A stretch of DNA of 64,000 nucleotides from Streptosporangium sp. NBC_01756 (GTDB lineage: Bacteria > Actinomycetota > Actinomycetes > Streptosporangiales > Streptosporangiaceae), in assembly GCF_035917975.1 (NCBI RefSeq), contig NZ_CP109130.1, positions 1,674,001 to 1,738,000 of the forward strand, in the 5' to 3' direction. Under the pieces are notes generated by a model. That model made no database searches. It saw only the letters and a program-made list of their open reading frames with translations, and had not been told where the DNA came from. This document shows, piece by piece, positions 1,785 through 44,726 of the stretch (its first letter is position 1; the number at the start of each line of letters is the position of its first letter). A program made the position numbers and the translations under genes.

Positions 1785-3917
1785 TCATACGACTTTTAGC
1801 TTCTCGGCGAAATGACATGCGGAGCCGTGGTCCTCCTCAAGCCGGCGGACCTGGGGCTCCTCGTGCACGCATCTTGCCCGGCCGGCCTCGTCGAGGGTCG
1901 TGAACAGGGGGCAGCGGGTGTGGAAGCGGCAGCCGGAGGGAGGCGCGGCCGGGCTGGGCAGGTCGCCTTCGAGCAGGATGCGCCTCCTGGAACGCTCCTT
2001 CTCGGGGTCGGGCAGCGGGATCGCCGACAGCAGCGCCTGCGTGTAGGGGTGCAGCGGGGTGTCGTACACCTGGCCGACCTGCCCGATCTCAGCGATCTTG
2101 CCGAGATACATGACCGCCACCCGGTCGGCGATGTGCCGGACGACGGCCAGATCGTGCGCCACGAACAGATAGGACAGGCCCAGGCGGTCCTTCAGGCCCT
2201 CCAGCAGGTTGATCACACCTGCCTGGATGGACACGTCGAGCGCCGAGACCGGCTCGTCCAGCACGAGCAGCCGGGGTTCGAGCGCGAGCGCCCGGGCGAT
2301 ACCGATGCGCTGGCGCTGCCCGCCCGAGAAGTCCTGCGGGTAGCGGGCGGCGTGGCCGGGGTCGAGACCGACGAGATGGAGCAGCTCCCGGACTCTTGGG
2401 CCGGGATCCCTGGTCCCGTGTGTGCGCAGCGGCTCGGCGACGATGTCGTAAACGGTCATCCTCGGGTCCAGCGACGCCATCGGATCCTGGAAGACCACCT
2501 GCATGTCCCGCCGGATCGCCATCCGGTCGCGGCGGCCGAGCCTCGCCGTGTCGTGTCCCAGCACCGTTATCGTGCCGCTCTGCGGTCTGGCCAGTTCCAG
2601 GATCTCCATCAGCGTGGTCGTCTTGCCGCAGCCCGACTCACCGACCAGGCCGAGCGTCTCCATTCGGCGGATGTCGAAGCTGATGCCGTCCACCGCGTGG
2701 ACCGTGCCGACCCGATGCCGCAGGACCGTCCCTTTCAGCTGGGGGTAGTGCCTGGTCAGGTCCTTGACCTCCAGCACCACGTCACGACCGTCACGCGGCG
2801 GCCGTACCGGCGGCGGCCCGGTCTCGTGCGCGTCCGGACCGCCGGACCCCGCCCGGTAGATCCGCGCGGGCGTCCAGCCCTCCGCCTCGATCTCGGCCGA
2901 GCGGACGCAGGCGGCCCGGTGGCCGGGGGAGCCCACCGGTTCCAGCGGCGGTTCCGCCTCGACGCAGACCGGGACCGCCATCGGACAGCGCGGCTCGAAC
3001 GGGCAGCCGGGCGGCAGCGCCGCCGGCGACGGAGGGTTTCCCTCGATCGGCACCAGCGGCTGCCCGGCGCCCCGGTCCAGGCGCGGGACCGAGGCGAGCA
3101 GACCCATGGTGTACGGCATGCGCGGGCGGTAGTAGACGTCGTCCACCGACCCGATCTCGACGGGCCGCCCGGCATACATGACCAGGACGCGGTCGACGGA
3201 CCCGGCCACCACCCCGAGGTCATGGGTGATCATGACGATCGCCGCACCGGTCTCGCGCTGTGCCCTCTTCAGCACCTCCAGCACCTGGGCCTGGATGGTC
3301 ACGTCGAGCGCGGTGGTCGGCTCGTCGCAGATGATCACGTCGGGGTCGTTGGCGATCGCCATCGCGATCATCACGCGCTGACGCATGCCGCCGGAGAACT
3401 CGTGCGGGAACGCCTTGGCGCGCTGGGCGGCACTGGGGATGCCGACCAGGTCGAGCAGTTCGACGGCCCGCTCCGCGGCCCGCCTCCTGGTGACCTTCTG
3501 GTGGATCCGCACGGCCTCGGCGATCTGGTCCCCCACCCGGTAGACCGGGGTGAGCGCGGAGAGCGGGTCCTGGAAGATCATTGAGATCGTCTTGCCCCGG
3601 AAGGCGGCAAGGGTCTTCTCGGACGCCCCGAGGATCTCCCTGCCCCGCAACCGCACCGAGCCGGTGGCGTGGGCGTGCGGCGGGAGCAGGCCCATCACGG
3701 CCAGCGACGTGACCGACTTGCCGGACCCCGACTCCCCGACGACACCGAGCACCTCGCCGGGGCGGACGGTGTATCCCACCCCGCGGACGGCGCGCACCGC
3801 GGCGGGACCGGAGCCGAAGGTCACGTTGAGGTCGGTCACCTCGAGGACCGGGTCGGCCAGGGCCGCCGCACCGGACCGGGCCGCCATGCCCGACCGGCGC
3901 TCGTCACACTCTCTCAT
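1785..3917 (-). CDS. Dual ATP-binding protein of oligopeptide ABC importer (OppD-OppF fusion)
   Basis: 710 aa carrying two complete ABC ATPase domains in one chain. The N-terminal half has Walker A GESGSGKS, signature FSGGMRQR and Walker B VIICDEP. The C-terminal half has [17 protein letters not shown] and LLVLDEP. Each half ends in the Cys-containing C-terminal extension typical of OppD/OppF ([14 protein letters not shown] and [10 protein letters not shown]). A single chain therefore replaces the usual OppD/OppF heterodimer, a common actinobacterial arrangement. Its start overlaps the end of the upstream permease gene by 4 bp, which indicates translational coupling. Confidence 0.93.
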
Positions 3918-39859: not shown

Positions 39860-42346
<2,487 letters not shown>

Positions 42347-42403
42347 GTCAATCTTCCCTCGGTATACGTCTGCGCAGATGATCTGGCTCATCCGACCCAA
42401 TAG

Positions 42404-42428
42404 AAAAACCCTCCGCTCACGCGAAGGG
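42404..42428 (-). terminator. Attenuator terminator in the leuS leader
   Basis: In the minus-strand RNA, CCCUUCGC (42428-42421) pairs fully with GCGGAGGG (42416-42409) around GUGA, one G-U pair, followed by UUUUU (42408-42404). A true U-run terminator 58 bases before the leuS start codon can only be a conditional (attenuation) signal. Confidence 0.85.
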
Positions 42429-42430
42429 CA

Positions 42431-42472
42431 GCCGCATCGGCGGGCGTCTAACGCCGGGAAGGCCGATGCGGC
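42431..42472 (-). promoter_or_regulatory. Leader hairpin of the leuS attenuator
   Basis: Perfect 11-bp inverted arms GCCGATGCGGC (42462-42472) and GCCGCATCGGC (42431-42441). The leader-peptide stop codon lies in the loop. A ribosome stalled at the upstream Leu codons would change pairing of this hairpin relative to the terminator that follows directly. Confidence 0.75.
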
Positions 42473-42501
42473 CCGATAAGCAGCAGGGTCTCGGCACGCA
42501 T
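42448..42501 (-). CDS. leuS leader peptide with three consecutive Leu codons
   Basis: 17 codons reading [17 protein letters not shown], with Leu codons CTG CTG CTT and a TAG stop in the loop of the following hairpin. No clear ribosome site precedes it, so it may be translated from a nearly leaderless transcript (a GATAGT-like -10 lies about ten bases before). It serves as a sensor of leucyl-tRNA supply by classical ribosome-mediated attenuation, as predicted for leuS in some Streptomyces. Confidence 0.8.
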
Positions 42502-42884
42502 ACGTCAAGACTATCGCAGTCCGCAAGCCGTATTCATGGCCTGGGGAAACAAGTCTGATCACGGTAAACCGGGGACACGGGCACCGGCAGGTCAGCACAA
42601 TGGAAACCCGTGAGTCCGGGACAGATGGCGAGTCGACGGCGGTACGTCCGTTGTGAGCTCACATGTCTCATCAGTTTACTCTTTTCAACGTGGCACACTC
42701 AGTCGAGCCGGGGCAGGGCCCGGATCCATCGGAGGTCGGCCTGCCGATGCAGGACCCGCCCACCGACCCCACCGGGCTCCAGTTCAGGGGGGCGTTCTCC
42801 AGTTTCCCTGCAAACCCCCCCGTCTCACGTGAGACCATGCCCAATACCCCTAATTCGGGCGCTCGCCCGGGAGGTAAGGAAGCC
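42502..42884. other. Divergent promoter region of leuS leader and Pro-rich membrane protein
   Basis: 383 bp. It should contain the leuS leader promoter (minus strand) close to 42510 and the promoter of the gene at 42885. The frame of the latter stays open to 42663, but that stretch has no upstream ribosome site. No terminator or repeat seen. Confidence 0.45.
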
Positions 42885-44726
42885 ATGGCCTCGGAGCAGT
42901 CCAGCCAATCCCACCTGCCTCCGGCATGGCCGGAGGCAGCCGATCCGCCGCCCGCCTGGGCGAGAGACTCTTCGGGCACCGGTCCACGGCTCCCCCTTCC
43001 TCCGGAGGAGCCCCCCGGAGGCGGCACCTCGTGGCAGGCCAGCGTTCCCGGCAACGGCTCCTGGCAACAGATCTTCGGGACATCGGCCTCCGCCTCCCCG
43101 CATCCGCGATCCCCGGATCGGCAGCCCGGCGGCGACTCCCCGCAGGCCGTACCGCAGGGCAGCCCCGACCCCTGGCCGTCTGCCCAGCCCTCCCCTCCGG
43201 CCGAGAACGGCGGCTGGGGCACGCCACAGACCGCTGACAGCCAGGGCTGGAACACGGCTCCGGCCACCGAGAACGGCGGCTGGGGAGCGGCCCAGAACAC
43301 CGGCAACGGAGGGTGGGACACCGCCTCGACGGCGAGCGGCGGCGGATGGAACGCCTCCTCGGCGACCGACAACGGGGGGTGGGGCAGCCCGCCGGCCGAG
43401 CCTCCGAACCACGCCTCCTCGCCTTCGTGGCCGGTCCCCCCGGGTGCCGGCCCGGCCCCCTTCACGGGCCAGGACCCTCTGACCAGCCCCAACCCCTTCG
43501 CGGGCCAAGGACACCCCAGCAGCCCCGCCAACCCCAACCCCTTCGCGGGCCAAGGACACCCCAGCAGCCCCGCCAACCCCAACCCCTTCGCGAACCAAGA
43601 CCCCCTCACCAGCCCCAACCCCTTCGCGGGCCAGCAGGAGGCGTTCCGGAACCCGCTGGGTGACGGCGCCGGCCCGGACGGCCCGCCGGTGTGGACCACG
43701 GCGGGAGCGACCGCCCCTCCCGGCGCCCCGGCGCAGGCTCCGCCGTACGATCCCGCACAGGGGGCACCCACGCACGGCCAGCCCCATCCCGGGCAGCCCC
43801 ATCCCGGGCAGCCTCCGATGCAGGGGCAGTCGGCTCCGCCGGGCGGCCATCTGAGCCGGGACCCCTCCGACCCCAACAGGCCCTTCGTCACCGCCGGTCA
43901 GATCAGCGGGCCGAAGACCCCTCCGCCGGAGCGTCAGCAGGAGCTGTGGAACACGGTCTTCGGCGACAACTACCAGGCCATGGACGACGGACAGGACCTT
44001 GACGAACAGGGCAGGCCGGTCTGGGTCTTCGCGCTCGCGGGTTCCGTGGCGATCGCCTTGGTCGGTGCCGTGCTCTGGGCCTTCCTGGCCGGTCCGCTGG
44101 CCTCCACTGAGGAGGAGGCCGCTCCTGCGGTGAAGCCCTCCGCGACCGCCAAGAAGCCCGCCAGGTCCCAGGCCGTGGGTCGCCTGCCGCGCTTCCCCGG
44201 CAAGGCCTCGGCGGTCGCGGGCACCCTGCCCGATCAGGCTGCGGCGATCAGTGTGGCGAGGCTTGGCACTCCCTGGCGCCAGGACCAGCGGCAGAGCATG
44301 TCCATCAGCTACGGTTTCACCACGCGTCAGTATGTCCCGGCCGGCACGGACTCCCTGGGCAAGGCCCAGTTCGCCCAGGTGATGTCGGGGGCACTGTCGC
44401 CCCGGCTGAAGAGCAAGTACACCTCGCCGGACAAACTGGCCCCGGTGATCAACGCGGTCGCCTCCGCCGGACGCAAGAAGTTCTTCCCCGAGGACAACAC
44501 CGCGCGCAAGACCGCCCAGCAGACCCTGTCCGTCAACGGCCTGGCCGGGCAGCTCGCCGCCTACGAGATCACCTCCGGCACGTCCAAGACGACCATGGTC
44601 GTGGCGGCCGTGAACACCGGCGCCGAACTGCCCGTGATCGTCTACATGTCGGTCCCGGACAGCAAGAAGGAACTGTTGCCCGACATCAACACCGTGTTCA
44701 AGTCGATTCGGAAGACGACCACCTGA
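42885..44726 (+). CDS. Pro/Gly/Asn-rich single-pass membrane protein
   Basis: 613 aa from the ATG at 42885 with GGGAGG and AAGGA upstream. Residues 1-~370 are low-complexity and cytoplasmic, with tandem units of the kind NPFAGQGHPSSPANP and repeats of GGW-containing blocks (ENGGWG, DNGGWGS). One membrane helix (VWVFALAGSVAIALVGAVLWAFLAGPL) follows near residue ~455. The extracellular ~160-residue domain (LPDQAAAISVARLGTPWRQDQRQSMSISYGF to the end) has no Cys. No family recognised. The divergent location from leuS does not imply related function. Confidence 0.75.
   Translation: MASEQSSQSHLPPAWPEAADPPPAWARDSSGTGPRLPLPPEEPPGGGTSWQASVPGNGSWQQIFGTSASASPHPRSPDRQPGGDSPQAVPQGSPDPWPSAQPSPPAENGGWGTPQTADSQGWNTAPATENGGWGAAQNTGNGGWDTASTASGGGWNASSATDNGGWGSPPAEPPNHASSPSWPVPPGAGPAPFTGQDPLTSPNPFAGQGHPSSPANPNPFAGQGHPSSPANPNPFANQDPLTSPNPFAGQQEAFRNPLGDGAGPDGPPVWTTAGATAPPGAPAQAPPYDPAQGAPTHGQPHPGQPHPGQPPMQGQSAPPGGHLSRDPSDPNRPFVTAGQISGPKTPPPERQQELWNTVFGDNYQAMDDGQDLDEQGRPVWVFALAGSVAIALVGAVLWAFLAGPLASTEEEAAPAVKPSATAKKPARSQAVGRLPRFPGKASAVAGTLPDQAAAISVARLGTPWRQDQRQSMSISYGFTTRQYVPAGTDSLGKAQFAQVMSGALSPRLKSKYTSPDKLAPVINAVASAGRKKFFPEDNTARKTAQQTLSVNGLAGQLAAYEITSGTSKTTMVVAAVNTGAELPVIVYMSVPDSKKELLPDINTVFKSIRKTTT

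Follow-up and report, generated by a model that had tools for sequence, protein, structure and literature searches.

In Streptomyces avermitilis and S. coelicolor, classical attenuators in front of leuS have been predicted by Seliverstov et al. (2005; PMC1262725, in the portion of the text available), as an earlier note on this DNA had rightly indicated when it spoke of such leaders in some Streptomyces. In S. lividans TK24, the available part of PMC8079986 reports the leader peptide leuL2, MRAVRLLLSEPR, as leaderless, with a hairpin and then a U stretch between it and leuS. These two papers were the only reports of a leuS leader found in the literature that was available in whole or in part, subscription papers lying outside the scope of the search; the available portions of PMC3896937, PMC2965389, PMC9413887, PMC11525245 and PMC11995493 report none, and the remaining papers listed were assessed from their titles. 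Here, we describe an element of this kind in the window, by which we mean the whole stretch of 64,000 nucleotides that was analysed from the genome of Streptosporangium sp. NBC_01756 (a single contig of 9.0 Mb). On the evidence of sequence comparison, the leader in front of leuS is a real and conserved leader-peptide attenuator that is predicted to be leaderless and whose mechanism is well supported by its relatives, and we consider it highly probable that a ribosome-mediated transcription attenuator controls leuS. The features of the locus, with the basis of each assignment, are as follows.

42508–42513, minus strand: TAGTCT, −10 hexamer of a promoter predicted to give a leaderless transcript (sequence)
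42448–42501, minus strand: leader peptide ORF of 17 codons, with its ATG at 42501 and its stop codon TAG at 42450–42448 (sequence and relatives)
42478–42486, minus strand: regulatory Leu codons CTG CTG CTT (string match)
42472–42477, minus strand: spacer of 6 nt, ATCGGG, that separates the Leu codons from the segment 1 core (parsed family leaders, 62/62)
42462–42472, minus strand: segment 1, the 5' arm of the 1:2 hairpin, GCCGCATCGGC, with its core CCGCAT at 42471–42466 (compensatory changes)
42431–42441, minus strand: segment 2, the 3' arm of the 1:2 hairpin, GCCGATGCGGC, with its core ATGCGG at 42437–42432 (compensatory changes)
42419–42424, minus strand: segment 3, UCGCGU, proposed antiterminator partner of segment 2 (complementarity and folding)
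42404–42429, minus strand: intrinsic terminator (3:4 hairpin) with its U-run, GCCCTTCGC-GTGA-GCGGAGGGT with TTTTT (scan and covariation)
39860–42346, minus strand: leuS, leucyl-tRNA synthetase of 828 aa and of the short type, with a GTG start at 42346 (TIGR00396 and PDB 1h3n)

The leuS product scored 933.6 bits against TIGR00396 (cut-off 548.4) and matched the leucyl-tRNA synthetase of PDB 1h3n with an E-value of 4.8e-250. The 17-codon minus-strand peptide with CTG CTG CTT that the earlier note had described was confirmed by direct reading and by string match, and the two hairpins that it had placed behind the peptide were also found as described: a perfect 11-bp hairpin (11/11 positions paired around a 20-nt loop), whose loop encloses the stop codon, and, just before leuS, a U-run terminator that ends 57 nt from the leuS start. 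Within the 1:2 loop the stop codon is flanked by an additional 5-bp helix (GGCGT/ACGCC), and the spacer and the hairpin arm share one base, the last of the former and the first of the latter. The terminator stem has nine pairs and is followed by T5, whose first T still belongs to the stem as its final base, and segment 3 overlaps both the 5' arm and the loop of this terminator. In the 401-nt region scanned, one terminator was found versus 0.2 expected from shuffled sequences. The same note had held that all parts of classical attenuation were present, which was right for the leader, the hairpin and the terminator, but it had named no antiterminator, for which the 2:3 pairing is now proposed. 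A long plus-strand frame at 42663–44726 neighbours the leader and is directed away from leuS; we judge it to be the next gene, with overlapping minus-strand frames present. The plus-strand frame has no Pfam match, and the GC content by codon position in that interval gives no clear strand preference. No Rfam family, T-box included, reached its gathering score in the window, and a search of 42350–42600 at E-values up to 1 returned mir-2331 (E 0.62) as the sole match; a T-box or other Rfam element was rejected.

The leader ATG is placed 6 nt after the −10 hexamer, a spacing typical of a leaderless transcript, which explains why a ribosome site is missing. The earlier note had remarked that the peptide seems to lack such a site; this holds, in that no Shine-Dalgarno-like motif was found before the leader start codon in the window or in any of 66 family and 54 class leaders, but it is no oddity, as the leader mRNA of the window's species is predicted to be leaderless, like that of S. 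lividans leuL2 (PMC8079986, available part). Scanning for the sigma-70 consensus, TTGACA box included, gave no match and no −35 element was found, the −10 hexamer being of the TANNNT type. Across the class leaders the start codon follows TANNNT by 6 nt (37 leaders) or 7 nt (17 leaders), in 54/54 leaders obtained with a parser that required a TANNNT box and allowed 3–10 nt to the start codon. The whole leuL2-like pattern is thus present in the window: a start codon 6–7 nt after TANNNT, LLL, 6 nt, CCGCR, a U-run terminator and leuS.

Conservation of the peptide was assessed in 95 leuS upstream regions from the window's family (35 loci fetched by searches and 60 picked by hand from the listed hits, spread over genera). 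A short ORF containing Leu-Leu and starting 4–8 nt past TANNNT was present in 67/95 of these regions, and in 16/16 of those from Streptosporangium. Under stricter limits (an LL doublet in an ORF of 7–20 aa that starts 4–8 nt after TANNNT) the count was 66/95; the frame that was lost, a 32-residue GTG frame in L085, is probably spurious. In 20 mononucleotide shuffles the LL count was 0–2/95 each time, and on the reverse strand it was 0/95. When other doublets were counted in the same way, RR was found in 33 regions, AA in 25, PP in 8, SS in 4 and GG in 2, with 0/95 for the remaining 14 doublets, and many of the RR and AA doublets were observed, uncounted, to fall within the same Leu peptides. 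The corresponding triplet counts among the 95 regions were 55 for LLL, 6 for AAA and 1 for PPP.

By the stricter criteria, 29/95 family regions yielded no leader peptide. In L041, L045, L062, L085 and L091 the promoter motif TGCGCTANNCT is kept and the Leu peptide is gone, and these loci are possible examples of natural attenuator decay. Two other loci that have no standard leader are L073, which keeps the promoter motif and has an LL frame starting at TTG, and L084, in which the peptide is retained with a single Leu. Outside the window's family, 57 class loci were scanned and leaders were parsed in 54, the other three being L266, with one Leu only, and L223 and L280, which were left unparsed and both match the covariance model introduced below. 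The layout of the window's leader had been called unusually clean, a description that we do not uphold, because the related leaders compared across the class look alike in layout. The leader pattern was also seen at L163, on a contig from a MAG that bears the label uncultured Methylocystaceae, where it reflects either contamination or a chance match.

The distance from the last Leu codon to the segment 1 core was 6 nt in every family leader in which pairing with segment 2 allowed segment 1 to be located (62 of 66 leaders), and the 6-mer found at that distance in the class leaders was CCGCGC in 40/54 and another CCGNNN in 12/54. In the LLLL leaders L254 and L286, CCG comes after 3 nt instead, and the codon counted as their last Leu codon is the one 6 nt before CCG. 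Several leaders (L069; L249, L250, L261, L262, L267, L275 and L282) have a stop codon directly after LLLT, LLLS or LLA, which leaves the CCG stretch outside the ORF and its distance to the Leu codons unchanged. The last Leu codon itself was CTT in 57/66 family and 52/54 class leaders, and CTC in the rest. For comparison, the coding stretches of leuS at the class loci use CTT for 18/1467 Leu codons, and the leuS of the window uses it for 0/68. The tRNA that reads CUU as well as CUC is tRNA-Leu(GAG). A rare CTT at the sensing position offers a direct test case for selective-charging theory in high-GC bacteria. Selective charging and leader codon choice are discussed in the available part of PMC1183508, and that of PMC4427996 held nothing of use on LeuS types or leader codon choice.

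To compare the RNA structures, 57 of the 62 segment-parsed family leaders were aligned with plain MAFFT (alignment A1), leaving out four leaders with more than 25 nt between stop codon and segment 2 and one duplicate; the segment 2 parser had itself dropped 4/66 leaders (L051, L052, L053 and L059), which stand outside the segment counts. RNAalifold applied to A1 returned, unaided, precisely two elements, the 1:2 hairpin and the terminator, and 98.3% of cells in A1 were paired versus 43–58% in slid versions of the alignment. Double changes occurred in 7/17 pairs and amounted to 93 compensatory cells, where shuffles averaged 29.4. After class members were added (94 sequences), 98.4% of cells were paired and 12/17 pairs carried double changes (152 cells versus 45.6 in shuffles), in an alignment that was fitted to the structure model, all 94 loci having matched it, and is thus biased towards it. 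Two positions of the 1:2 hairpin are nearly balanced between alternatives (AU 29/GC 27 and GC 25/AU 24). The first of these is the middle base of the codon four places past the Leu run, and a His/Arg switch in the peptide thereby tracks the hairpin partner base. The anti-antiterminator 1:2 overlaps the leader ORF and is maintained by compensatory change, and the simple terminator hairpin was missing in 3/116 loci (L272, L274 and L285). Folded in isolation, the 103-nt leader RNA gave a folding z of −3.05; its minimum-energy fold was rejected as the functional form, since it swaps the terminator for another pairing that is absent from the consensus fold. The earlier note had named a lack of conserved Leu codons or of hairpin pairing in relatives as the result that would speak against it. 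The relatives keep the Leu codons, the 6-nt distance and the U-run, both hairpins show compensatory changes among them, and the comparison supports that note's reading of the locus as classical ribosome-mediated attenuation.

For the antiterminator we propose, more tentatively than for the two hairpins, that ATGCGG of segment 2 pairs with UCGCGU of segment 3. Among 62 family leaders this 2:3 pairing reaches 6/6 bp in 41 and 5/6 bp in 21, versus a shuffled mean of 4.2. When partners were swapped between species the mean fell only from 5.66 to 5.62, and covariation by partner swapping was thus negative in the family set. It was weak in the set with a 6-nt terminator loop, in which 22 distinct sets paired at 5.0/6, versus 3.0 with shuffled loop letters (0/2000) and 4.8/6 with permuted partners (the observed value being reached in 23/2000). 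The 2:3 complementarity was above all 300 shuffles in each of the family, short-type and long-type sets. These data indicate that the proposed pairing is supported mainly by conserved complementarity and little by covariation. When the fold excludes segment 1 as well as the 3' arm of the terminator, the window RNA is predicted to fold into the 2:3 antiterminator at −7.6 kcal/mol. The same omission gave at least 4/6 segment 2 bases paired downstream in 50/62 leaders, a count that has no shuffled control, and 2:3 was not formed in 12/62 even with segment 1 omitted. The predicted terminator was more stable than the antiterminator in 62/62 leaders (medians of −16.5 and −6.3 kcal/mol, respectively), so that antitermination, if it occurs, must be kinetic.

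From these parts we infer stalling, antitermination and a response to leucine in the following way. RNA polymerase would start at or beside the leader ATG, and a ribosome would load onto the leaderless message. With ample charged Leu-tRNA, the ribosome would clear CTG CTG CTT and reach the stop codon inside the 1:2 hairpin, upon which the 3:4 terminator would form and transcription would end before leuS. When charged Leu-tRNA is short, chiefly the isoacceptor for CUU/CUC, the ribosome would stall on the Leu codons. Given the size of the ribosome footprint, segment 1 would lie beneath the ribosome paused there, whose front edge would reach the core 6 nt downstream; segment 2 would then be free to pair with segment 3, the terminator would be blocked and leuS would be transcribed. 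If the leader is not translated, the 1:2 hairpin is expected to form and the terminator to win.

This mechanism has to be weighed against simpler readings, of which one is a constitutive terminator, serving for example against antisense or read-through transcription, that happens to follow a meaningless short ORF. A terminator alone would have scored in our scans, and the 29/95 family regions that gave no leader peptide are in keeping with it, but it would predict neither Leu codons fixed 6 nt from a covarying hairpin nor CTT as the last of them. The plus-strand frame at 42663–44726, if a gene, would also leave no near upstream minus-strand gene from which read-through could come, although overlapping minus-strand frames, the lack of a Pfam match and the ambiguous GC content weaken this point, and we consider this reading very unlikely. 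Still less probable is nascent-peptide arrest, in which the LLLxxPR peptide would itself stall the ribosome in response to a drug or metabolite. The P-R ending is common among class leaders, as such a mechanism would suggest; in the early-stop leaders listed above, however, the stop codon precedes the CCG stretch, which means that P-R is never translated there and yet the nucleotides stay, and where P-H and P-R alternate the change goes with the hairpin partner base.

The two remaining readings concern the direction and the level of control. In the untranslated RNA the Leu-codon region could pair with the terminator 3' arm, making antitermination the default, so that any ribosome on the leader would lead to termination; the window RNA folded in isolation shows this pairing at minimum energy, but the consensus fold of the 57 relatives lacks it, and a stall during leucine shortage would then shut leuS down, the opposite of what would be expected for a synthetase. 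Such a reversed arrangement we rate lower again. Control of leuS translation instead of transcription is proposed for some actinobacterial leaders, namely the T-boxes of ileS, in the available text of PMC1262725, but the conserved U-run terminator, at which the alignment ends, speaks against it here, and it is the least credible of these alternatives. Ribosome-mediated transcription attenuation is therefore the reading that we carry forward.

To assess how far the element extends, a covariance model built from A1 was searched against the class genomes at E-values up to 0.01. It matched in 223/394 class genomes and 97/137 genera, the window's family included. At 93 of the loci (30 search loci, 40 picked from the stronger hits, 22 further loci and the own genome's second hit) the downstream gene was leuS in 68 and cimA in 24, and one locus was too short to tell. 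Thirty loci from twelve by-genome searches, some of them repeats of loci already counted, preceded leuS (11), cimA (9) or an ilvB-like acetolactate synthase gene (8, of which two were confirmed and six assigned by sequence likeness), with L319 too short and L327 having no assigned gene. Because cimA and ilvB-like targets occur among the matches, 223 is not a tally of leuS leaders.

In the source genome itself, a sister attenuator stands before cimA at L240:1501-1606 (G000:C1:2631772-2631877, minus strand), and others were seen at L288–L310. The own-genome cimA product (citramalate synthase) scored 593.9 bits against TIGR00977. The cimA leader peptides, for example MFYGLLIIGRRAG, MPSQVLIIVRRAG and MPPQAIIIVRRAG, carry Ile and Leu codons and are accompanied by a GCGCG hairpin arm and a U-run, and a short ORF with at least three L, I or V residues in a row was present at 24/24 cimA loci, which were found by the model and so give no prevalence. 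No cimA leader report was judged relevant by title in the literature search, from which subscription papers were out of scope, and the cimA leader may be an undescribed isoleucine attenuator. In the ilvB-like leaders inspected by eye (L321, L322, L326, L331, L336 and L338–L340), an Ile-Leu-Val run ends in CTT in 7/8, L338 being the exception.

The leader also occurs with two types of LeuS, a short type like that of the window and a long type taken to be Streptomyces-like, which are ~40% identical. Among the 54 class leaders from outside the window's family, 22 stand before the short type, 31 before the long type and one before a LeuS of undetermined type. Genomes of families f9, f19 and f20 carry either type and one carries both: in f9 and f20, genomes have one or the other (21 genomes, two with no match and several incompletely assembled), and G396 has both (L258 and L259), each with its own leader. 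In a comparison that covers three short-type loci and turns on small margins, the leaders of these loci are nearest to leaders of long-type genes. The leader of short-type L231 (f9), a locus that holds only 74 leuS residues, is nearest to that of long-type L235 (f9) at 81%, and is 73% identical to those of short-type L232 (f20) and of L061 in the window's family. The leader of short-type L232 is nearest to those of long-type L223 (f9, 75%) and L220 (f20, 74%), and then to that of L231 (73%), and the leader of short-type L258 (f19) is nearest to that of long-type L281 (f19) at 64%. A cleaner pair for such a comparison would be that of G306 (f9), where a short leuS (C179:1112-3562) and its leader (3625-3731) lie on one contig. 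We offer it as a tentative scenario, rather less likely to hold in full than to fail in some part, that the attenuator arose early in Actinomycetes and stayed in place while two anciently diverged LeuS types were swapped behind it, that it senses tRNA-Leu(GAG) through a near-fixed CUY 6 nt before the core, and that an Ile-codon sister controls cimA. With two LeuS types found behind a single kind of leader, there is a chance to learn whether a regulatory leader can outlive its gene.

Set beside the known systems, the window element resembles the ilvBNC attenuator of C. glutamicum (PMC11857589, available part) in having an anti-antiterminator, a terminator and, as proposed for the window, an antiterminator, the last two of which overlap, but that attenuator has another target operon and other regulatory codons and is backed there by mutational analysis. 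With the LEU element of leuA it shares a Leu-rich leader peptide in Actinobacteria, whereas the LEU element, as given in the available text of PMC1262725, has a pseudoknot and a base stem in which the Leu codon run pairs with the leuA SD box, where the window has a U-run terminator. Much closer is S. lividans TK24 leuL2 (PMC8079986, available part), which has LLL, the arrangement LLL-2 residues-PR, the same codon spacing and a hairpin with a U stretch; its peptide has 12 residues versus 17 in the window, in which the stop codon sits in the hairpin loop. The Streptomyces leuS attenuators of PMC1262725, as far as its available text describes them, share the gene, the Leu-codon leader peptide, the terminator hairpin and the antiterminator hairpin that is proposed here, but Streptomyces-like loci, judged to be so from the peptide MRAVRLLLSEPR, have the long LeuS and the window has the short one. 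The window element is thus a member of the known leuS-attenuator kind in another lineage, and not of a new kind. The available portions of PMC1262725 and PMC8079986 do not mention how widely the element is spread, that its 6-nt geometry is fixed, the bias to CTT or the existence of two LeuS types; the former names two species, versus model matches in 223/394 class genomes here, other target genes included. Taken together, these comparisons turn a 2005 prediction from two Streptomyces into a device that is well supported, widespread and strict in its geometry, and that can be put to the test with simple reporter mutants.
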